Shown: positions 1-57,831 of the stretch, one piece after another
How positions within the stretch are numbered: the stretch's first letter is position 1
How the letters are laid out: every line of letters starts with the position of its first letter
From: Lachnospiraceae bacterium
GTDB taxonomy: Bacteria > Bacillota > Clostridia > Lachnospirales > Lachnospiraceae
Direction of reading: 5' to 3'
Length of the DNA: 64,000 nucleotides
NCBI GenBank assembly: GCA_910575155.1
Contig: CAJTDX010000001.1
Span: 62,001 to 126,000, forward strand
The notes under the pieces: model-generated
The model's input: only the letters and a program-made list of their open reading frames with translations
The model's database searches: none
Told to the model about the DNA's origin: nothing
Translations under genes and position numbers: made by a program

Positions 1-1120
1 GCTTGACATTTCCTTTCCGCTTGCCCCGTACTGCGTCCAGTTATCCGGGAATCCGTCAAGCCGTTCACATTCTAACGGGGTCAGGGAACGGACCCTGTAT
101 TTCTGCCGCCAGCTCTCTTCCGGGGCTGCCACGGCGTGTCTGTCGCTCTCTGTCAGCGTCGGGGAAATATCCTGCCCCACTCCCGTCTGATTGCCGCCGC
201 TCCCCGCTTTCCTTCCCAGTACATTCCCGATAATCGTATATACGGGAAGAAGATAGTACCCCGTCTTTGCCGCCCCGCCGCCTGCCCGCCCCATCAGCGT
301 CACGCTTTGTTTTGCGTCAATATATATCCTGTCGCCGGTCCGTCCAAAATCTAACTTTGTATGCTTCTTTTCTTCTCCCTCTTCAAAGTTCAGCTTCAAC
401 TGTCCGTCTGCGCCTTGTGCCAGTCCTCCGCTATTACCTCCAGAAGCGCAATCCGCAGTTTGTCCGGCATATCCCGTTTCATATCCTCTGCCCTCTGCAA
501 CATAGCCCAACACACTTTCGCACTCAAAAAGTATTTGTCCGGCACGGTCTGTTCTAAAATCTCTGACAAGATAGATTCGTTTTCGACGCTGGGGAACGCC
601 CCAGTATTGAGCGTCCAACATTCTCCAAGCTGTACTTCCCCCCCCTGCTTCTAACCATTCCGGCATTTGCCCATCTTCCGCTTGCAGGCATTGGAATTGC
701 GGTCTTTGTGATTTCTTCAAGCACCTTTTGAAAGTCCCTGCCTTTATTGCTTGAAAAAGCCCCTGCCACGTTCTCCCAGACTGCGTATTTTGGGTACTTT
801 CCATTTGTCGCACACCTCATTTCATCAATAATTCTGACCGCTTCAAAAAACAGTCTTGATTCTGACCCGGCAAGCCCTTTCCCGTTCCCTGCTACACTCA
901 AATTCTGACAGGGGGAACCAAAAGAAATAATGTCAACGGGCGGTATCTCTGCGCCGTTTATTTCCATGATGTTCCCTAACTGCTGCATATCCGGGAAATG
1001 TTTTGCGCTTATGTCTATGCAGTCCGCTTCAATTTCGCTTCCCCATACAGGCGTTATGCCCTGCCGCTTCGCCGCAAGCGGAAAGCCTGCTATCCCGTCA
1101 AATAAGCTCCCTAACGTCAT
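1..1120 (-). CDS. DNA (cytosine-5) methyltransferase, frameshifted at a G8 tract, partial at the window edge
   Basis: This is a Dcm-type C5 methyltransferase, which transfers a methyl group from S-adenosylmethionine to cytosine in DNA. The N-terminal part (1120 down to about 646) has motif I (GSLFDGIAGF), the catalytic loop FGSPCQNLS with its Cys, and motif VI WENVAG. At 638-645 there are eight G on the coding strand. Read as written, the frame continues for only about 30 unrelated residues and stops at 554. With one G fewer, the frame continues as RGGSTAWRMLDAQYWGV, then QRRKRIYLV (motif VIII), then a target-recognition stretch. It reaches the conserved RSLTPLECERLDGFPDNW and is open to base 1. 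I translated 637 to 1 by hand in this frame and saw no stop. The start has the ribosome site GGGAGGG. The gene is last of the visible leftward genes of the element. It is either phase variable, a recent pseudogene, or a homopolymer read error. Confidence 0.85.
638..645 (-). repeat. G8 homopolymer inside the methyltransferase gene
   Basis: Eight C on the plus strand are eight G on the coding strand. Both sides of the tract encode intact methyltransferase motifs in two different frames, so the tract length alone decides whether a full-length enzyme is made. G7 restores the frame. This is the usual form of a slipped-strand phase-variation tract. Confidence 0.75.
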
Positions 1121-1591: not shown

Positions 1592-1888
1592 CTATCCCTC
1601 CAGCACAACTTTTGTATAAATCTCCATTGCAAGGTCGGAAAAAGAAAATTCGCTGATACTTTCAACTGGTACTTCCTCCCCTGCGGTCATGTACTCTGCT
1701 GCTCCTACTCTTTTTAGCTCTTTCCGGTGTATATCCGTTGACAATCCGTGCCGCTTGACTTCCCGGCTCCTGTCAATCTGCGTATATCCCAGACAGGCAA
1801 CAAAACCCCTGTAAAGCTCCCCTGTGTTATCTTCAACAATCAGCCTGTCACTTGGGACAGCTCCTTTCATAAACTCTTCCAGAATCAC
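1592..1888 (-). CDS. Unknown protein of the mobile element, 98 aa
   Basis: This is a 98-residue protein that starts MILEEFMKGAVPSDRLIVED and contains short predicted beta strands followed by a C-terminal helix (FSDLAMEIYTKVVLEG). I do not recognise it. The likely start is GTG at 1886-1888, which overlaps the stop of the replication protein in a GTGA arrangement, so translation is probably coupled. An ATG seven codons later is a possible alternative start. It shares an operon with the replication initiator, the two short proteins that follow and the methyltransferase. Confidence 0.6.
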   Translation of the reverse strand: MILEEFMKGAVPSDRLIVEDNTGELYRGFVACLGYTQIDRSREVKRHGLSTDIHRKELKRVGAAEYMTAGEEVPVESISEFSFSDLAMEIYTKVVLEG

Positions 1889-2778
1889 TTCTTTTTCCCT
1901 CCTGTTTTTCTGCCTTTTTTCTTTCCCGGCTTTTTATCCGGCTTCTTCCACATCTTCAAGTAGATATGCCAGCCCGTTTCTTCGTAGTAGACAGGTTCAA
2001 TGCTTACAATGTCATAATTCGGGAATTGCTTCTTGAAGAACTCCTTCCCGCAATCATCAGACTTCGCCAGCTTCTCTATCTGCTTTTTCGTGTATTTATA
2101 ATCTGCGTTCGGCAGCTCTACCGGGCGCACAAGGTTTCTGCTACTGCTCCACCTCTTCTTCCCCTGCGGGTCCTTCACTATGTACTTGCAAAGTGCTTCA
2201 ATGCCGTTTTCATTCGTCTGTATGCGGTCAGCGTTCGCCCATCCCATCTGCTTTATACCTGCCCTATACTGCGGGTCATTCTGCGCTTTATTCCAGTTGA
2301 TACGGTCAGCCGTCCACATCAGTTCTACATCATCACGGGACAAACCGCCGTTCATGATAATGTGGTGGTGTACCCTCTTTATCATCTGCCCTGCCTTGTC
2401 GAATTTATATTCTGTCACAAGGATATATTTCAGCGGGTCCAGCCCTAATTTCCCCCGCCTGTATGCTATCCGGCGCAAGTAGTTATTCACTATCTTTTCC
2501 GCTTCCTCTATGCTGCCCGGCAGGTGGTCTTTATCGTATGTACAGGAAACGTGCAAATCACCTGTACCAAAATTCCCATTCCCTAACTGAACCAGATACC
2601 GCTTTGCGTTCTTTTCATTCAGGTCTTTTTGCTTTGGCTCCGATACCTTTTTACGCTTCCCCCTCTTTCCCTTTACCACCTTTTCTGCCTTTTCTGTCCG
2701 GGGAATTATATCCGCTTCCCGGTACTGCCCGCAGTCCACCTTCTTCTCCCTCATGAACACTTTACCCAATGCAACCAC
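1885..2778 (-). CDS. HUH-type replication initiator (Rep, G2P/ORF2-like)
   Basis: This 297-residue basic protein resembles rolling-circle replication initiators found in Firmicutes plasmids and integrative elements. The likely HUH metal-binding motif is VHHHIIMNG at about residues 140-150. The later KYIVKD fits a catalytic Tyr followed by Lys (YxxK). The N-terminal third is Lys/Arg-rich and the C-terminal end is a basic tail (KKPGKKKGRK). I placed the start at GTG 2776-2778, because AAGGAAGG precedes it and the protein then begins VALGKVFMREKK. The frame is open 44 codons further upstream, but that part looks non-coding. By family, it would nick one strand at a double-strand origin to allow replication of the excised element. 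Three direct repeats lie about 100 bases upstream. Confidence 0.8.
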   Translation of the reverse strand: MVALGKVFMREKKVDCGQYREADIIPRTEKAEKVVKGKRGKRKKVSEPKQKDLNEKNAKRYLVQLGNGNFGTGDLHVSCTYDKDHLPGSIEEAEKIVNNYLRRIAYRRGKLGLDPLKYILVTEYKFDKAGQMIKRVHHHIIMNGGLSRDDVELMWTADRINWNKAQNDPQYRAGIKQMGWANADRIQTNENGIEALCKYIVKDPQGKKRWSSSRNLVRPVELPNADYKYTKKQIEKLAKSDDCGKEFFKKQFPNYDIVSIEPVYYEETGWHIYLKMWKKPDKKPGKKKGRKTGGKKK

Positions 2779-2875
2779 ACCTTCCTTTTCTGTCCTTATA
2801 CCTGTGTGGCGTGGGTATGTTCCGGGCGGGGACTCTCCCCCTTCCCTTCTTTCCCTCCTGCTTATTATCCATGTG

Positions 2876-2945
2876 TTACGCAAGTATATAATATATATTA
2901 TCTTACGCAAGTATATATTCTATATCTATATTACGCAAGTATATA
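2876..2945. repeat. Three iteron-like direct repeats upstream of rep
   Basis: TTACGCAAGTATATA occurs at 2876-2890, 2903-2917 and 2931-2945, with start-to-start spacing of 27 and 28 bases in very AT-rich DNA. On the minus strand each repeat reads TATATACTTGCGTAA, which also holds a -10-like TATACT and a -35-like TTGCGT (TTGCGT-16-TATACT between neighbours). They may be initiator-binding iterons, repressor operators or tandem promoters for rep. The rest of the gene-free stretch 2779-3098 shows only a plus-strand promoter at 3037-3065. Confidence 0.7.
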
Positions 2946-3036
2946 TATACTATTCGTAGGAATGTTAATACCCCATACAAGCCCGTTTTCCGGGATAAAA
3001 ACCCGGCATTTTCAACGGTTTCACCGCTGATTTTGC

Positions 3037-3145
3037 TTGCTTTTACACCGCCAACATGGTATAATAAACATGAACTGATTTATTAAAAAATGTTAGCGAA
3101 AAACCTTTGTTGAATGTGTTTGCGGCACTTCTTCAAAGGTTTTTT
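3037..3145 (+). ncRNA. Possible small RNA: promoter and terminator with no ORF between
   Basis: A plus-strand promoter TTGCTT (3037-3042), 17 bases, TATAAT (3060-3065) is followed about 35 bases later by the hairpin 3099-3109/3134-3144 and a run of six T. The transcript would be about 70-75 nt. It would be antisense to any message that reads leftward from the 3175 gene towards rep. Rolling-circle replicons often control Rep with a countertranscribed RNA, so that role is possible, but it is inference. Confidence 0.4.
3099..3144 (-). terminator. Bidirectional rho-independent terminator
   Basis: The arms AAAAACCTTTG and CAAAGGTTTTT (11 bp) enclose a 24-base loop. On the minus strand the stem ends in TTTTT, so it can stop the leftward operon after the gene at 3175-3369. 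On the plus strand it is followed by TTTTTT. Confidence 0.65.
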
Positions 3146-3174
3146 GTTATGTCTTTTTCGCATTTCTGCGGGTT

Positions 3175-3369
3175 TTACAGCGGTTTATATAGTTCCTTCC
3201 TGCTTTCCCCGCACCACAACTTCTTTCCGTCTTTCGTCCTGATAGTTACTATCCCGTCCCGGAACCTGTACCCGGCTTCAATCGTTCCTTCATGCCACTT
3301 CCCTTCATGGAAAATCGCCGCAGGCTGACCGACGACATACGGGAATTTCAGATTTTCTTTTGCTTCCAT
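3175..3369 (-). CDS. Small conserved protein of the mobile element, 64 aa
   Basis: This is a 64-residue protein with strand-rich sequence (KFPYVVGQPAAIFHEGKW, YRFRDGIVTIRTKDG, KKLWCGESRKELYKPL). It looks like a compact beta barrel of SH3 or OB type. I recall similar short proteins in Lachnospiraceae integrative elements, but no function is known to me. It follows the lectin-fold protein by 31 bases and ends just before the terminator at 3099-3144, so it is the last gene of that transcription unit. Confidence 0.65.
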   Translation of the reverse strand: MEAKENLKFPYVVGQPAAIFHEGKWHEGTIEAGYRFRDGIVTIRTKDGKKLWCGESRKELYKPL

Positions 3370-3400
3370 TTTCCAGCCGCCTTTCTTTTAGCGGGCGTTG

Positions 3401-4438
3401 TCACGCCCTTTTCAGTATTTCAGTTACCAGTTTCCAGTCCTCCAGATATAAAGCGGAACGGAAGGACACATTGCCGTAGACGTTAGAACGGGCGTTGTCC
3501 AAGCCCAACGCCGCCACCCCACCGCCGGAAGTGCGGTCGAAGCCCGAACCCCGGAAAGGCACGGCTTCTTCAAGCTCACTGTCAACCCATATACCCGCTT
3601 TTTCCTGCTGCCAGTCCTGCGGCAATATCCCCAGCCTATGTATGATTTCCGGGACTTCTTTCAGGCTCCCGGCAAGCTGCAAATCCCGCATATGACAGCA
3701 ATTCCAGCCCCCGGCAATCTGTCCGTCTGTCAGCACGACTTTTCCGCACTGTGCGTCAAGATACAGCGGATTTCCGAACGGAAGCCCTTCTTCCCCCGGT
3801 TCCTCTGTCCGTGCAATCGTCCAGGCGGGGTCCTGCGGCTTGAAGTCTTCTGCTGCTGCGTTATTGTCCGGGATATACTCAATTACGCCTTTGTGAAGCC
3901 GCAGCCCTGCTACACGCTCCCAGAAGTTCCCGCAAAGTCCGAAAACCCCTTCCGGCGTTCCGTCGTGGCTCCATGAAAGCGGCTCTGTCCCAGTCAGAAC
4001 CGTGTAGCCGTCGTAACAATAGCCCTTTTCCTCCGGGTCGTCAGCGTTCTTCCCGTAGTCTGTGTTACCGCTGATTGTATGCCCTGCTGCCGCTGCGTCT
4101 TTCATCAGGTACACCCATTCAGCATTAGTCATTAAATGCCATCCGGGTCCCTTCCTCCGGCAAGCTGCCGCCGCTTCGTCATGGCTCATGCTTTCGGCGG
4201 GCTTCTGATACGGCAGGGAAGCGGGAATGTCCTTCATCATGACGTTTGTATATTGCGATATGAGAATCGCCGCCATATTTTTCCCGTTTACCTTGAACAT
4301 TTCCGGCACGTCCTCCGGCTTATACGTCCCCGGCTCCATGTAAAACATAGTCATGTAGTTGGGAAGCCCGGCTTCATCATGCACGACGACTGCCGCCTTG
4401 AAAATTCCCTTTTCCTGCGCTTCTGTCATTTTTGACAT
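3401..4438 (-). CDS. C-type-lectin / FGE-fold protein, likely diversity-generating retroelement target
   Basis: This 345-residue protein has no signal peptide. It has the formylglycine-generating-enzyme/C-type-lectin fold: WHLMTNAEWVYLM, then GLCGNFWERVAG, then a C-terminal FRGSGFD...SFRSALYL. The last part (residues about 295-329, nucleotides about 3454-3556) matches the layout of variable regions in DGR target proteins, which end in a short Arg-Ser-Ala-Leu-like motif after an Asn/Gly/Ser-rich stretch. The codons for GFDRTSGG are all NNC or NNT, as expected where AAY template codons were changed at A. The same holds for several codons of DNA and NVYGN. No reverse transcriptase, Avd or template repeat is visible here. 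The start has a perfect AAGGAGG. By analogy it would be a ligand-binding display protein. The alternative is a non-diversified FGE-fold protein. Confidence 0.7.
   Translation of the reverse strand: MSKMTEAQEKGIFKAAVVVHDEAGLPNYMTMFYMEPGTYKPEDVPEMFKVNGKNMAAILISQYTNVMMKDIPASLPYQKPAESMSHDEAAAACRRKGPGWHLMTNAEWVYLMKDAAAAGHTISGNTDYGKNADDPEEKGYCYDGYTVLTGTEPLSWSHDGTPEGVFGLCGNFWERVAGLRLHKGVIEYIPDNNAAAEDFKPQDPAWTIARTEEPGEEGLPFGNPLYLDAQCGKVVLTDGQIAGGWNCCHMRDLQLAGSLKEVPEIIHRLGILPQDWQQEKAGIWVDSELEEAVPFRGSGFDRTSGGGVAALGLDNARSNVYGNVSFRSALYLEDWKLVTEILKRA
3454..3556 (-). repeat. Putative DGR variable region (VR)
   Basis: This is the 3' end of the lectin-fold gene, encoding the presumed ligand-binding loop. 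The run of NNY codons and the closing FRSAL motif are the evidence. The matching template repeat was not found by eye in the window. Confidence 0.45.
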
Positions 4439-4474
4439 TCTGTTTTTCCTCCTTGTATCTGGTATGATATTTAT

Positions 4475-4639
4475 TTAGACAGCCGCCTTTCGGGGCTGCT
4501 GTTCTCCGTCTTCATGTACCGTCACCGTGATAGACACGTTTTCTTTCCGGGACAGAATCAACGCCAGCGTTTCAAAAAACCGCTTCGCATTGAAAGTCCC
4601 TTCTACCTGCACGCCTGCTGCCGCAAGCCTTTCTTTCAT
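4475..4639 (-). CDS. Small unknown protein, 54 aa
   Basis: This is a short gene with a perfect ribosome site (GGAGGTG, 5 bases before ATG). The protein starts MKERLAAAGVQVEGTFNAKR and contains a hydrophobic helix (FFETLALILSR) and a strand (VSITVTVHED). I do not recognise it. It lies 36 bases upstream of the lectin-fold gene in the same direction, and the good ribosome site makes it real rather than chance. Confidence 0.6.
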   Translation of the reverse strand: MKERLAAAGVQVEGTFNAKRFFETLALILSRKENVSITVTVHEDGEQQPRKAAV

Positions 4640-4710
4640 CTGCTCCACCTCCTACATTTCATAACACGCCAGCAGCCGGACGGCGTATTTGCCGCCCTGA
4701 TTTTCTGTGA

Positions 4711-4926
4711 CTATATGTATAGGCTGGTATCTTCAAACAACATTCCTTCTACCTCTGCGGCAAACTTATTGAATAAGTCCCGCAGTTCTGCAACCCTGCT
4801 TTCCTGCAATCCTTCAAATTCCAGATTGACTTTTGCGTATGCGTCCGGGTCACTTGATACTATTCTTTTTTGAAATGTCACGCCACTTGTTATCCGCACT
4901 TCCCTTTTTACTTCTTCCGCTTCCAT
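4711..4926 (-). CDS. Unknown protein of the mobile element, 71 aa
   Basis: I placed the start at ATG 4924-4926 because AAGGAA precedes it by 9 bases. The frame is open for 29 more codons upstream, but that part has an odd Arg/Cys-rich sequence. The protein (MEAEEVKREVRITSGVTFQK...) is acidic, with two strands and then a long helix (LQESRVAELRDLFNKFAAEVEGMLF). I recognise no family. It is in the leftward operon under the promoter at 5396-5424. Confidence 0.55.
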   Translation of the reverse strand: MEAEEVKREVRITSGVTFQKRIVSSDPDAYAKVNLEFEGLQESRVAELRDLFNKFAAEVEGMLFEDTSLYI

Positions 4927-5161
4927 TTCTGCACGTTCCTTTCCGCACCGCCGCTGCCGCTTTTCTCTACTAAAAAGCCGCCTGCCCGGAAAACTTGCTG
5001 TCCGACTATACACTTTATAGCTGGTGTAACCGCTGCCCGTTTGACAGTGCTTTATTTTCGGGGTCTGGCTGTCCCCTGATTGAACCGGGCGGGAATCGGA
5101 CCCGCCCCGCAGGTTTTCACGCCTGCTGCCCCTCTGCGGCTCCCGGTCCTTTGCTTTCTTC

Positions 5162-5344
5162 TTATACTGCTGCCGCTGCCAGCTTCGCCTGCCTTGCCTT
5201 TTCGATTTTCTGTCTATCAGCTAAAGCGGTCATGTAGGTTCTGGCAAGCACGATTGAATTTTCATCTAAACTTTCAAGAATCCTTGTTACTTCCTCCGTA
5301 TCGGAAGAAAGCATTGTTTTTCTGATTTCCTCTGCGCCTTTCAT
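5162..5344 (-). CDS. Small helical protein, first gene of the leftward operon, 60 aa
   Basis: This 60-residue all-helical protein (MKGAEEIRKTMLSSDTEEV...) ends in an Ala/Lys-rich helix (ADRQKIEKARQAKLAAAAV). The ribosome site GGGAGGAAG is strong. It is transcribed divergently from the CI-like repressor and starts 52 bases after the consensus promoter. Its place is that of an early regulator (Cro- or antirepressor-like position), but it has no recognisable HTH, so its role is open. Confidence 0.6.
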   Translation of the reverse strand: MKGAEEIRKTMLSSDTEEVTRILESLDENSIVLARTYMTALADRQKIEKARQAKLAAAAV

Positions 5345-5377
5345 GTGGTCTTCCTCCCTTCTGTTTTCTGCTTTGTT

Positions 5378-5455
5378 TTTCTTGACTATGGTATGATTAT
5401 ATCTACCTTTGGTAAGTTTGTCAATACCTTTTTCAGATTTTTCTTGACTATGGTA
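5378..5455. promoter_or_regulatory. Operator region of the repressor/operon switch
   Basis: A 16-base direct repeat (TTTCTTGACTATGGTA) occurs at 5378-5393 and 5440-5455, 62 bases apart. It flanks the palindrome TACCTTTGGTA at 5404-5414. The half-site GGTA is common to all three. The right copy also holds TTGACT, which with TATTCT at 5467-5472 could form the repressor's own promoter. This is the layout of a lambda-like switch with three operators. Confidence 0.6.
5396..5424 (-). promoter_or_regulatory. Consensus sigma-A promoter of the leftward operon with operator in the spacer
   Basis: On the minus strand TTGACA (5424-5419), a 17-base spacer and TATAAT (5401-5396) match the consensus exactly. 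The palindrome TACCTTTGGTA at 5404-5414 lies inside the spacer. Such a strong promoter needs repression, and the CI-like gene at 5504 is the obvious candidate. Confidence 0.8.
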
Positions 5456-5503
5456 AGTTTTTTTGATATTCTCTTTTTAGACGGACGGGAAAGGGGTGAT
5501 AAA

Positions 5504-5869
5504 ATGAATGAACGTCTAAAAGCTCTTAGAAAAGAATTGTCTTTAAGTCAGGAAGCCTTCGGGAAGAAGTTGGGTGTTACCGGGGCGGGAATCTCCAGAA
5601 TAGAAAGCGGCGTTAGAAGCCTTACGGAACAAATGATTCTTGCTACTTGCCGGGAATTTAATGTACGGGAAGAATGGCTGCGGGACGGAACCGGGGAAAT
5701 GTTTCTTGACTTCACGGAAGATGAATTTTCAAGGGCTGCTGCCACTCTCTCAAATGACGCTTTTGTTAGAAGCCTGATTGTTGAATACTGGAAACTTGAT
5801 GAAGACAGTAGACAGCTTTTCCGGGACTTCATACATAAGTTGTCAGACAATATGCGGGGGCTGGAATAA
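5504..5869 (+). CDS. XRE/CI-like repressor
   Basis: This 121-residue protein has an N-terminal helix-turn-helix of the XRE family (residues about 4-60: LKALRKELSLSQEAFGKKLG, then GISRIESGVRSL). An acidic helical C-terminal part (DFTEDEFSRAAATL...WKLDEDSRQLFRDFIHKL) is probably for dimerisation. The start ATG at 5504 has AAGGGGTG before it. The upstream open frame crosses the operator region and is not coding. It has no autoproteolytic S24 domain, so induction cannot be the LexA type. It faces away from the leftward operon and most likely represses the promoter at 5396-5424. Confidence 0.8.
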   Translation: MNERLKALRKELSLSQEAFGKKLGVTGAGISRIESGVRSLTEQMILATCREFNVREEWLRDGTGEMFLDFTEDEFSRAAATLSNDAFVRSLIVEYWKLDEDSRQLFRDFIHKLSDNMRGLE

Positions 5870-6986: not shown

Positions 6987-8363
6987 ATGAAAAAGAAAAG
7001 CCTGCCGCCCCTTGTCCGTGTCGGTCTTTATATCAGGGTTTCCGGGGAAGAACAAAAAATAAAGGGTCTTTCCCTTGAAGCCCAACAAGAACGGCTGGAA
7101 GAATACGCACGGGAACGGGGGTGGCTGATAGTCGGGGTATATATCGACGCTGCGAAAACCGCCAGAAAGAATATGCACAAGCGGACAGAATTTCAAAAAA
7201 TGATTGAAGCCGTGAAGCGTGATGAATTAGACTTGCTTCTGTTCTGCCGCCTTGACCGCTGGTTCCGCTCCGTCGCTGACTATTACAAAGTTATGGAAAT
7301 CTTGCAGGCGCACGGCTGCGACTGGAAGACAATAGATGAAGAATACGACACGACAACCGCAAACGGGCGGTTATATATCAATGTGAAACTGTCTATCGCA
7401 CAAAATGAAGCTGATATTTGCGGGGAAAGAATCGACGTAGTATTTGACAGCAAGATTGCACACGGAACCGTTGTTTCCGGCTCCTGCCCGTTCGGGTACA
7501 AGGTCAATGAAGAAAAGCGGCTGGAAGTTTCCCCGGAAGAAGCCCGGATTGTTCAGGACGCTTTCAACCGCTTTGAAAGCACCGTCAGCCAGCGGGGGAC
7601 TGTGAAATATATCCGGGAAACTTACGGCGTGAACTGGTGTGACGCTACTTTCCGGCGTATGCTTTCAGAATCCTTGTATACTGGAATCTATGACCGGGGC
7701 GGCAGAAGGAATGAAAACTTCTGCCCGGCAATCATTGACCGGGCGCAATTTGACCGGGTTCAATCCCTCCTGAAAAGGAACGCCCGCAGCTCCCCTTCCG
7801 GCAGGGTCTACATTTTTACATCAATCTTGAAATGCGCTGAATGTAATCATAACATGGTGGGGCGTATTGCGGGCAGGTCAGGCAATCTTTATTATTACCG
7901 TTGCAACCAGCACTTTCAGCGGGGGCGTTGCTCCCACAAGGCAGAAGCACGGGAAGATATTATTGAAAAATGGCTTTTTGACAATCTGGAATCCGAACTG
8001 AACCGGGTCCGGCTTGAATGGGACGTAAAGGCGGCAGAAAAGAAAAAAGCTGTCCTGCGGACTGATAAAGCCGCCCTGAAAAGGAAGCTGACAAAGTTAA
8101 AAGAATTATATGTGAATGAGCTGATAGACATTGAAGAATACAAGAAGGACTATGAAATATATACGGCTGCGCTCCGGGAACTGCCGGAACCCGTAGCAGA
8201 AGCCCCGCCAGATTTTGCGGCAATAGAAAACCTGCTGCAAGCGGACTTCAAAAATATTTATGATACGCTGACCCGTGAAGAAAAGCGCACGTTGTGGCGG
8301 TCCGTGATTAAGGAAATCAGGATTGACAATGAAAACAATATCACGGGTATTTCTTTCGGGTAG
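6987..8363 (+). CDS. Large serine recombinase (integrase of the element)
   Basis: This 458-residue site-specific recombinase integrates and excises the element by concerted double-strand cleavage with a 5' phosphoserine. The resolvase domain (residues about 10-150) has YIRVSGEEQ with the catalytic Ser, and RLDRWFRS. The recombinase domain follows (about 160-260, PFGYKVNE, DAFNRFE). Then comes a zinc ribbon with CAEC and a later pair of Cys (RCNQHFQRGRC). A coiled-coil segment (about 330-400) normally controls direction. The length is typical of a compact family member. No xis/RDF gene is recognisable next to it. It is the last gene of the element: its stop codon lies in the inverted repeat 8357-8388, directly at the junction with the interrupted ABC gene. 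Confidence 0.9.
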   Translation: MKKKSLPPLVRVGLYIRVSGEEQKIKGLSLEAQQERLEEYARERGWLIVGVYIDAAKTARKNMHKRTEFQKMIEAVKRDELDLLLFCRLDRWFRSVADYYKVMEILQAHGCDWKTIDEEYDTTTANGRLYINVKLSIAQNEADICGERIDVVFDSKIAHGTVVSGSCPFGYKVNEEKRLEVSPEEARIVQDAFNRFESTVSQRGTVKYIRETYGVNWCDATFRRMLSESLYTGIYDRGGRRNENFCPAIIDRAQFDRVQSLLKRNARSSPSGRVYIFTSILKCAECNHNMVGRIAGRSGNLYYYRCNQHFQRGRCSHKAEAREDIIEKWLFDNLESELNRVRLEWDVKAAEKKKAVLRTDKAALKRKLTKLKELYVNELIDIEEYKKDYEIYTAALRELPEPVAEAPPDFAAIENLLQADFKNIYDTLTREEKRTLWRSVIKEIRIDNENNITGISFG

Positions 8364-8390
8364 TGTTGTACTAATTCGACACTACCCGTG
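8357..8390. other. Right junction (attR-like) of the element with inverted repeat
   Basis: A perfect 10-bp inverted repeat CGGGTAGTGT/ACACTACCCG (8357-8366 and 8379-8388) with a 12-base loop overlaps the last codons of the integrase. Immediately to the right the ABC ATPase reading frame starts at its codons for DEPTG. The symmetric arms fit a serine-integrase half-site pair, and the hairpin could also end integrase transcription. The exact crossover cannot be fixed without the left junction or an empty site. Confidence 0.6.
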
Positions 8391-8908
8391 GGTTCGTCTG
8401 CAAACAACATCCTGGGCATGTTAATCACTGCCCTTGCTATGGCGCACCGCTGCTGCTCTCCCCCGGAAACCTGTGAGGGAAGATGGTTTTTTACATGCGC
8501 GGCATTCATCTTATCAAGCAGTTCTTCTGCTTTTTGTTTTATCTCACTGGCTGTTTTTTTCTTATTCAGATATCCGGAAACTGCAACATTTTCAAATAAT
8601 GACAGATTGCTGACCAGATGCATCTGCTGAAAAATAAATCCAAAATCTGTGCAGCGCAGCCTGGTCAGCTCTTTTTCACGCATGGATACCAGATCTTTTT
8701 CATGGTACAGCACCTGGCCTGCCGTAGCTTTGTCCATGCCGCTTAACGCATACAGAAGCGTTGACTTTCCAGAGCCGGAGGCTCCCATAATCACGGTAAA
8801 ATCTCCCTCATATAAATCTAAATCAATGTGAGACAGGATATGCGTCTGCCTGCCATTGTGTACGAAACTTTTACTGATTCCCTTTGCTGATAAAATACAT
8901 TTTTTCAT
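8389..8908 (-). pseudogene. ABC transporter ATPase, 3' end cut off by the mobile element
   Basis: This is the first 173 residues of an ATPase of the MacB/LolD type, which powers export or peptide-detoxification permeases. Walker A GASGSGKS, the Q-loop FIFQQMHL, the signature VSGGEQQR and Walker B MLFADEPTG are all present. The sequence then runs into element DNA (SVELVQHYPKE...) and so loses the D-loop, switch His and C-terminal subdomain. The frame stays open to 8258 only by chance, on the strand opposite the integrase. The remaining 3' part and the permease gene should lie beyond the left end of the element. The start ATG has AAGGAGA. It follows a two-component system, the usual arrangement of antimicrobial-peptide sensing modules. 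Confidence 0.85.
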
Positions 8909-56322: not shown

Positions 56323-57831
56323 TCAAACGCCGCCGTCGATTCTTCCGCTGCCAGTACGATCGTCGTCAGTTCCATTCTGATCACCGGAATTGCCGCTGCC
56401 ATTTCCATTATTGTCATTGGAATTATTATTGTTGCTGTTATTATTATTGTTATTGTTGTTATTGCTATTATTATTGCTATTGTTATTGCTGTTATTGTTC
56501 CGGTTATTATTATTGCTGTTACTGTTGTTTCGATTGTTATTATTGTTGCTGTTATTATTATTGTTATTACTGTTATTATTATTGTTGTTATTGTTCGTTA
56601 TATTATTTCTGTTGTTATTTGTCGTATTACCATTACTGTTATTATTGTTTGTTATATTGTTCCTGTTGTTATTTGTCGTATTGCCATTATTGTTATTATT
56701 GTTTGTTGTATTGTTCCTGTTGTTATTGTTCTCCGTTGTATTATTGCTGTCATTATCGGATTTTGCTCCGGAAGTGGAAATCGTCTCGTCCTTCTCCTCT
56801 TCTTCCTCACGGGTCATTTCAATGGAAATCTCTGCGGTTGCGGAGTTTACAATCAGCGTCCTTTTCCAGTCCGTATACCCCTCTGCCTCCGCTGTCAGCC
56901 GATGGGCTCCATAAGTCACCTCGACAGCCTGGCCGAGCTGCACCTGTTCTCCGTCCAGTTTCACCACAGCGTTTTCCGGCGTCGCTTTGAACTGTATCTG
57001 ACAGATCTTCGGACCTTCTCCTTTCAGTTCATCCAGATTTACCTTCAGCTCACGATTTGCCTCCACGGTAATATTCCTGCTTCCGCCATAACCATTATTG
57101 GCTACTGCAAGAAGATATGTTCCTTCCGGTACCTCAATGCGCATCTGGGGCGTAATTTTTTTCGACAATATATTCCCGATGGTAATATATCCGCCCTGGA
57201 ACAGCTCTGTATTTTCCAGCACTACCGTTCCATGTCCTGTCGTCACCTGGATCACATAGATCTGCTGTCCTATGCCTTTCATACATATCGTATCCTGCTC
57301 ACTGATCTCAGACACAGAAATCTTGCTGTTTTCATGGTATATCAGCAGGTTTTCATCAAAATAATAACTTTCGTTTCCCACTGTCAGGGACTTCATCTCT
57401 TTGTCCAGGGTATAGCGGTACAGGTCGTCATATGAGAACGCCTCCGCGGAAATCTGTACAGTGGCCAGCGTCTCTTTCTTCTCTTCGATCGTAACCAGCT
57501 CTCCCAGTTCCAACTGCTCTATGGTCAGGTTATCGCCATATTTATTCTTAATGTAAGTTCCTCCTGTGTAGCTATAGGGCTTTTCTTTGGTTGTTTTGCA
57601 GTCGCGCAGCGTCAAAAGCCGGTGATCCGTGTCAATACCTGTCACCGCATACAATGCCTGCGGATCCTGTTTCTCTTCCTCTACCTGTATGTCCTCAGAC
57701 GCTTTTGTTTCTTCTCTTTTTACATAAACCTCGCTGCCATCTGTAATCTTTTTTTTCTTTTCCCCGCAGCCCGCTGCCGTAATAAGAAACAGCAGCAGCA
57801 GAAGCAGAATCTGTCCTTTTCTCTTTCGCAA
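56323..57831 (-). CDS. PEGA-domain lipoprotein with long poly-Asn tail
   Basis: This 502-residue lipoprotein has the lipobox ITAAGC at about residue 22. Two beta-rich regions (about 60-270) of unknown family are followed by a PEGA domain (about 275-340: IQFKATPENAVVKLDGEQV, YGAHRLTAEAEGYTDWKR), a cell-surface beta domain. From about 350 to the end the sequence is mostly Asn with Thr, Ser, Arg and Gly (NNNNSNGN-type), ending in an acidic Gly-rich tip. The start codon is TTG with AGGAGGAA. The tail is coded by AAT/AAC triplets, which are prone to slippage. It lies 19 bases after the CotS-like gene, so a spore-surface role is possible. Confidence 0.8.
   Translation of the reverse strand: MRKRKGQILLLLLLFLITAAGCGEKKKKITDGSEVYVKREETKASEDIQVEEEKQDPQALYAVTGIDTDHRLLTLRDCKTTKEKPYSYTGGTYIKNKYGDNLTIEQLELGELVTIEEKKETLATVQISAEAFSYDDLYRYTLDKEMKSLTVGNESYYFDENLLIYHENSKISVSEISEQDTICMKGIGQQIYVIQVTTGHGTVVLENTELFQGGYITIGNILSKKITPQMRIEVPEGTYLLAVANNGYGGSRNITVEANRELKVNLDELKGEGPKICQIQFKATPENAVVKLDGEQVQLGQAVEVTYGAHRLTAEAEGYTDWKRTLIVNSATAEISIEMTREEEEEKDETISTSGAKSDNDSNNTTENNNNRNNTTNNNNNNGNTTNNNRNNITNNNNSNGNTTNNNRNNITNNNNNNNNSNNNNNNSNNNNNRNNSNSNNNNRNNNSNNNSNNNSNNNNNNNNNSNNNNSNDNNGNGSGNSGDQNGTDDDRTGSGRIDGGV

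Follow-up and report, generated by a model that had tools for sequence, protein, structure and literature searches.

The prophage and the operon around VP2

The window (the whole stretch of 64,000 nucleotides analysed here) comprises bases 62001-126000 of contig C1 (342,605 bases) in a genome of 4.19 Mb. Its left end holds part of a prophage of ~49 kb which, from a reading of the open reading frames of C1:1-82000, extends over about C1:21.0-70.4 kb. The prophage is of the tailed type, with genes for terminase, portal, major head protein, tail sheath, baseplate, endolysin and integrase, alongside others for a terminase small subunit, ParA, ParB, a methyltransferase and a replication initiation protein. 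The front part of an ABC-transporter ATPase gene lies on the right flank (window 8258-8908) and its remainder was recognised by frame reading on the left (C1:about 20.8-21.3 kb); the two parts were read separately, and their presence on both flanks indicates that the prophage was inserted inside that gene. The short repeats at the prophage ends include no clear att core, and the DNA of C1:20001-40000 had no match among phage records. Named by reading, the neighbours of the split ATPase are permease-like on the left and sensor-kinase- and response-regulator-like on the right, and a host protein further along the window (56323-57831) carries a long asparagine-rich tail. The early region of this phage, which has an integrase as well, includes ParA- and ParB-like genes (L011 13557-15775), on the strength of which a plasmid-like stage of the prophage is possible.

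The gene of interest here, VP2, belongs to a series that runs from a promoter through three small ORFs, VP2 itself and a further small ORF to a replication initiation gene (Table 1). Two exact copies of the operator-like repeat TTGACTATGGTA in the window flank the promoter; with one mismatch allowed, 0.28 copies are expected and at least two occurred in 4 of 100 shuffles. A scan of 2700-5600 found no terminator-like site on the minus strand. As read from the sequence, the genes are ordered as in an early lytic operon, which would suggest early expression. The perfect promoter is particular to this prophage, the matches of relatives being weaker or absent. Across 12 compared sequences (own included), the replication gene lay downstream of VP2 in 11, the exception (L030) being a contig of 3.2 kb, and the 57-aa ORF lay upstream of VP2 in all 12. 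The latter was not found in the phage Lagaffe and has no PHROG match; it is a possible partner of VP2. Judged by the baseplate genes and the reverse transcriptase (RT), VP2 lies outside the tail module and its homologue VP1 inside it.

Table 1. Features of the VP2 locus and of the distant DGR cassette (window positions unless prefixed C1)
Feature	Position	Strand	Remarks
C5-cytosine DNA methyltransferase-like gene, further along early region	554..1120	-	phrog_116; PF00145 E 1.5e-27
Replication initiation protein, in VP2's operon and downstream of it	1885..2757	-	phrog_3584 E 1.6e-79
Small ORF downstream of VP2, 64 aa	3175..3369	-	
GGGCGT-GACA-ACGCCC hairpin, GRNA loop	3393..3408	-	overlaps VP2 stop codon; found as inverted repeat; consensus from Guo 2011
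VP2, remote DGR target protein, 345 aa	3401..4438	-	CLec/FGE-type fold; PHROG_2889
VR2, variable repeat matching TR	3450..3565	-	116-bp alignment
Small ORF upstream of VP2, 57 aa	4475..4648	-	
Small early ORF, 71 aa	4711..4926	-	start inferred inside longer open frame
First small ORF of early operon, 60 aa	5162..5344	-	
Operator-like repeat TTGACTATGGTA, copy 1	5382..5393	+	
Sigma-70 promoter TTGACA-17-TATAAT, facing VP2's early operon	5396..5424	-	consensus match 12/12
Operator-like repeat TTGACTATGGTA, copy 2	5444..5455	+	
HTH repressor-like regulator, divergent from early operon	5504..5869	+	phrog_8 E 7.7e-17
Serine recombinase/integrase, right end of prophage	6987..8363	+	phrog_95 integrase E 4.1e-108; PF00239 Resolvase, PF07508 Recombinase
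DGR RT	C1:27624-28283		PF00078 E 1.2e-21
TR, template repeat	C1:28776-28891		matches VR1 and VR2
VP1, first DGR target, tail module	C1:29431-30519		adjoins cassette on baseplate side

One template repeat, two targets

The first-pass annotation of this DNA had read 3401..4438 as a lectin-fold DGR target whose C-terminal stretch is the variable region, had supposed that the RT might lie left of the window or that the target might be a remote one, and had proposed a search of the genome for a DGR-type RT and a template repeat (TR) differing at adenines alone. That search found both, together with an Avd, and bore out both suppositions at once: RT, Avd, TR and VP1 all lie 35-38 kb left of VP2 in the same prophage, where RT, TR and Avd form a classical cassette. 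The RT is 49% identical to the annotated DGR RT of Lagaffe, and the Avd matches the bAvd family (PF22296, E 7.3e-20). Over 116 bp, the repeat of VP2 (VR2) differs from the TR at 14 of 24 template adenines and at none of the 92 other bases, across a separation of 36.6 kb; that of VP1 (VR1), the adjacent target in the tail module, is aligned over 113 bp, with changes at 11 of 24 template adenines and nowhere else. Looked for across the genome with up to two mismatches allowed, the TR-core pattern gave exact matches at the TR, VR1 and VR2 only, and three more places elsewhere in the genome with two mismatches. Several features by which a DGR is recognised are found: a DGR-type RT near a TR, an Avd, A-only differences between TR and VR, and a VR in the 3'-terminal part of a CLec-fold gene. 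VP2 is almost certainly the remote target of this prophage's DGR. That it is an ordinary lectin-fold protein whose NNC/NNT codons arose by coincidence has next to no probability, being refuted by the TR match as well as by the A-only VRs of six prophages and the VR-confined change in relatives described below. Absence of an RT was likewise rejected as an explanation, an RT having been found on the same contig.

An RT-family search of the whole genome gave eight places. On C36 (L014 7907-8014, 8704-8811), an RT of a further kind has a nearby 108-bp repeat pair with 14 mismatches, 10 of them at A in one reading, and the two could possibly be a second, older DGR of the same genome; C51 (L013) carries another RT, equal to it in length and close to it in score. 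Outside the prophage, an RT of 344 aa (C1:4664-5698, L005 1165-2199; PF00078 E 4.7e-9) adjoins genes that read as HTH-like and methyltransferase-like, and is perhaps a retron or defence RT.

Diversification of the remote target

The present prophage (G000) was compared with five related prophages or phages whose contigs carry both VP2 and the RT, giving a set of six (G000, G002, G008, G009, G011, G012). In all six, every mismatch of VR1 and of VR2 to their own TR falls at a template A, over aligned lengths of 110-116 bp; these lengths are given because the aligner, used here and for the IMG/VR contigs below, penalises non-A mismatches and its spans therefore favour A-only segments. In the order listed, template adenines differ at 11/24, 9/23, 11/24, 11/24, 11/24 and 15/27 positions in VR1, and at 14/24, 9/23, 11/24, 14/24, 12/24 and 10/28 in VR2. 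The TRs of G008 and G009 are identical to that of G000; those of G002, G011 and G012 differ from it at non-A bases, where both VRs of each track their own TR, as repeated homing would bring about.

The VP2 genes of three relatives (G008, G009 and L026) have no pairwise differences outside the VR (0/919), and differ within it at 17, 20 and 15 positions, of which 17, 19 and 14 fall at template A when the TR of the G000 prophage, rather than L026's own, is taken as the template. A comparison between strains had been set beforehand as a test of the first-pass reading, and its outcome agreed with that reading, change in the repeat being mostly non-synonymous at A sites and the rest of the gene synonymous-rich. 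Between G008 and L021, 22 codons ahead of the VR carry synonymous changes and 4 non-synonymous ones, as against 1 and 7 within it. Such patterns in the near-identical genes of relatives indicate that the remote VP2 site has been diversified recently in nature, and the VR-only differences between them led us to reject an orphaned or decayed target.

A hairpin behind the repeats

Efficient homing in BPP-1 requires a hairpin behind the VR (Guo 2011, PMC3240598), and phage DGR hairpins are described there as having a GC-rich stem of 7-10 bp and a GRNA loop, 4-34 bp behind the VR. The hairpin of VR2 spans the stop codon, as does that of BPP-1 (PMC3240598); however, its stem of 6 bp falls just outside the published range of 7-10, and the hairpins here begin 38-43 nt after the VR core, compared with 4-34 bp in the published set (PMC3240598). 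In the present prophage, a GRNA hairpin is found at both VRs and none at the TR. Across the six prophages, a GRNA hairpin with a stem of at least 6 follows 11 of the 12 VRs (VR1 in 6/6, VR2 in 5/6, the one without being VP2 of G012) and 0/6 TRs; of 24000 stretches of 110 bases taken at random from these prophages, 90 contain one. By analogy with BPP-1, the hairpin at the VP2 stop codon is probably a target-recognition element. It is not general beyond the six prophages. Lagaffe has it behind neither target; in the hairpin search that included Lagaffe, seven targets gave no VR end by the pattern used. In a wider set under a strict rule (loci classed as described below), 33 early-class loci had an identifiable VR end, of which 14 carry the hairpin and 19 do not, and it was found in 7 of 15 tail-class loci, the other 8 having a 5-bp stem.

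Transplanting the IMH and hairpin region of BPP-1 sufficed to target a heterologous gene (PMC3240598), so that VP2 could in principle be an idle duplicate of the tail target which still receives cDNA through a kept repeat and hairpin. This is very improbable in the face of the clear purifying selection ahead of the VR noted above between G008 and L021, and of a paralogue lineage that is deep and present in many phages.

Early and tail-located branches of one family

VP1 and VP2 share 30% identity, a PHROG and a common VR scaffold. To place them among their relatives, an IMG/VR scan was seeded with relatives of VP2, and the best 80 of 148 stretches encoding a relative gave 79 loci. By marker genes, 83 loci (78 from the scan's best 80 of 148 and 5 from genomes) were classed as 40 early, 22 tail and 21 undecided, proportions that, from a VP2-seeded scan, are not a survey; none of the 83 had both early and tail markers. 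Left out of the 83 and of alignment A1 were L023 (partial) and L030 (stop in match), the latter being kept in the 12-sequence synteny comparison above. The tblastn match was interrupted by a stop in fifteen of the 83 loci; 14 of these, with the stop close to the end, were cut there, and one (L085), with the stop near the start, was dropped. Alignment A3 was built from VP2 of the window together with 69 of the 82 loci. A first predicted structure, from 11 close sequences, reached a pLDDT of 41.5 and was set aside.

In a tree of 93 sequences, from which five duplicates of the six prophages had been dropped and in which 16 named proteins (six prophages, Lagaffe, Dulem) were labelled by position relative to the RT, tail and early copies separate, 30/30 against 0/42, with a support of 0.999 that becomes 1.0 with the VR masked; the split between the 30 tail and 42 early copies was recovered in 100/100 FastTree bootstraps. 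An N-terminal NFD motif is present in 17 of 22 tail-class loci (the other five have a different N-terminus) and in 0/34 early-class loci. VP2 is without it, and early-class copies have variable N- or C-terminal additions instead. The early VP starts in L103, L105, L106, L107, L112, L130 and others with an extra N-terminal stretch of ~70 residues that has no Pfam match, and Lagaffe-like early members have a C-terminal extension of ~120 residues. Pfam searches of ten extended early proteins gave FGE matches, 3/10 over the cut-off, and nothing firm in their extra parts. Residue use at the variable sites showed no clear difference between tail and early copies. On these comparisons, VP2 belongs to a distinct and old family of paralogues, found outside the tail module and mostly in early operons by replication or recombination genes, and is not a stray copy of VP1. 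Such a split between early and tail families also offers a rule by which tail and early targets could be told apart from sequence.

These results bear on the main alternative, that VP2 is a second virion receptor-binding protein, two diversified binders widening the receptor range, as has been proposed in print for the Lagaffe pair (PMC11792537). The homology of VP1 and VP2, with their shared PHROG and VR scaffold, fits such a role, but VP2 is not in a tail location, the tree sets it apart from tail-located copies, and in place of the NFD N-terminus its class has variable N- or C-terminal additions; we regard this role as unlikely, though far from negligible.

Of 32 contigs that carry a VP2-type gene and were searched for an RT, 16 have one and 16 gave none, though many are fragments. 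Fifteen IMG/VR contigs (9 early, 6 undecided by markers; G026, with an RT match below the cut-off, left out) were tested for a TR, and in 15/15 the TR matches the VP2-type gene, which is separated from the RT by about 6 to 80 kb. Non-A mismatches in the VP2-type VR numbered 0 in 8 contigs (including L098, which matches over 60 bp only), 1 in 6, and 9 in one (L087), and 14/15 have, next to the RT, a second repeat in which non-A mismatches number 0 or 1. For the second RT of G039 (L165) no match was obtained. Six genome loci with a VP2 gene bear the names Lachnospiraceae, Clostridiaceae, Ruminococcus, Eubacterium and Lachnoclostridium. Within the host family, 11 of 397 genomes (own included) have a VP2 homologue at E 1e-20 or better, early and tail types being undistinguished in this count, and the same-genus genome among those 397 has none. 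One host-family genome (G072) has five VP2 homologues, two of them adjoining on C88.

What VP2 may bind

Phage DGRs have been explained mostly by tail proteins and receptor switching, and a conserved, non-tail second target in a family of its own raises the question of what a phage gains by randomising an early protein. The following sequence of events would account for the observations, its homing path being taken from BPP-1. RT and Avd would copy the TR RNA with errors at adenines, and the cDNA would overwrite the 3' repeat of VP1 and, 36.6 kb away, that of VP2. An altered VP1 would be carried on the progeny particle; an altered VP2 would come into play only once a further cell expresses that genome, and selection on VP2 should consequently act inside or at that cell. 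There, VP2 would be made early and stay soluble, its randomised surface binding a variable molecule of the host or of a rival phage. The most likely purpose of such binding would be counter-defence or takeover.

An early-type position, no sign of export (VP2 has low hydropathy and no strongly hydrophobic segment) and no tail N-terminus together make an early soluble binder of a host-variable molecule the simplest reading. Counting against an early role, the VP2 location in 6 of the 15 TR-tested contigs was not classed as early by markers. PADLOC models matched 0 of 6 proteins, a result with little bearing on counter-defence, PADLOC covering defence systems. We consider an early intracellular role slightly favoured, and the account as a whole, a remote DGR target that serves as an early soluble intracellular binder, probable by a small balance.

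It is worth considering, however, that VP2 might be produced by the lysogen, or set free when the cell lyses, and act at the cell surface, for instance by blocking receptors or serving as a decoy against superinfecting phages. VP2 adjoins the integrase/repressor region, near which exclusion genes are often located, and its surface would suit receptor binding. Against this stand the lack of a strongly hydrophobic segment and a promoter whose position suggests that the repressor shuts it off in lysogens, and a role at the surface seems improbable. Returning to the early soluble binder, we put forward tentatively, at somewhat less than even confidence, that in a gut phage lineage one TR randomises two paralogous lectin-fold proteins: a late tail binder that would act outside the cell, and an early soluble binder that would act inside it, in an arms race within the cell of which counter-defence is an example. 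The early binders form a family of their own apart from all sampled tail targets.

Comparison with known systems

The TR/VR/Avd/RT logic is the same as in the DGR of BPP-1 (PMC3240598), the target of which, Mtd, is a tail-tip protein and three-domain trimer, whereas VP2 lies outside the tail module (PMC6328139 for Mtd). TaqVP (5vf4), of a Thermus aquaticus prophage DGR, shares 31% identity with VP2 in the aligned part, but the TaqVP gene shares a cassette with avd and the TR (PMC6328139), unlike the remote VP2.

Phage DGRs with a remote, apparently non-structural second target are already known, as described in PMC8008677 and PMC12629997. The Quimbyvirus DGR has two targets, one near tail genes and one distal, the latter judged non-structural and lying near defence and counter-defence genes (PMC8008677); these are phages of Bacteroidetes with the RT in overlapping frames, and we liken the distal target to VP2 by its published description. 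Four inducible gut prophage species have a second VR distal from the RT (PMC12629997); they too are likened by description, and the parts of that report available to us describe no paralogue family or early-operon conservation. The literature searched yielded no description of a separate early paralogue family, its operon position, or a hairpin at the remote site. Dulem virus 37 encodes two such proteins, the second between lysis genes and integrase in no clear early operon, with a VR that has 16/27 A and 4 non-A mismatches.

Two VRs have been reported for Lagaffe_CP (near-identical to Lagaffe), Lelie and CP11 (PMC11792537). In Lagaffe (NC_047911; PMC5883640), a Faecalibacterium phage, gp26, Avd, TR and RT lie in the tail module, as does the VP1 cassette here, and the second, homologous target, gp40, lies among early genes, those for transposase, exonuclease, Gam, ERF and SSB. 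Its TR differs from gp26 at 13/25 A and no other base over 115 bp, and from gp40 at 11/25 A and no other base over 105 bp. Phage and host are different from those described here, gp40 has a C-terminal extension, and VP2 and gp40 share 33% identity. The gp26/gp40 pair, in a prophage reported to produce virions, offers a testable pair for a role of DGRs in intracellular conflict.
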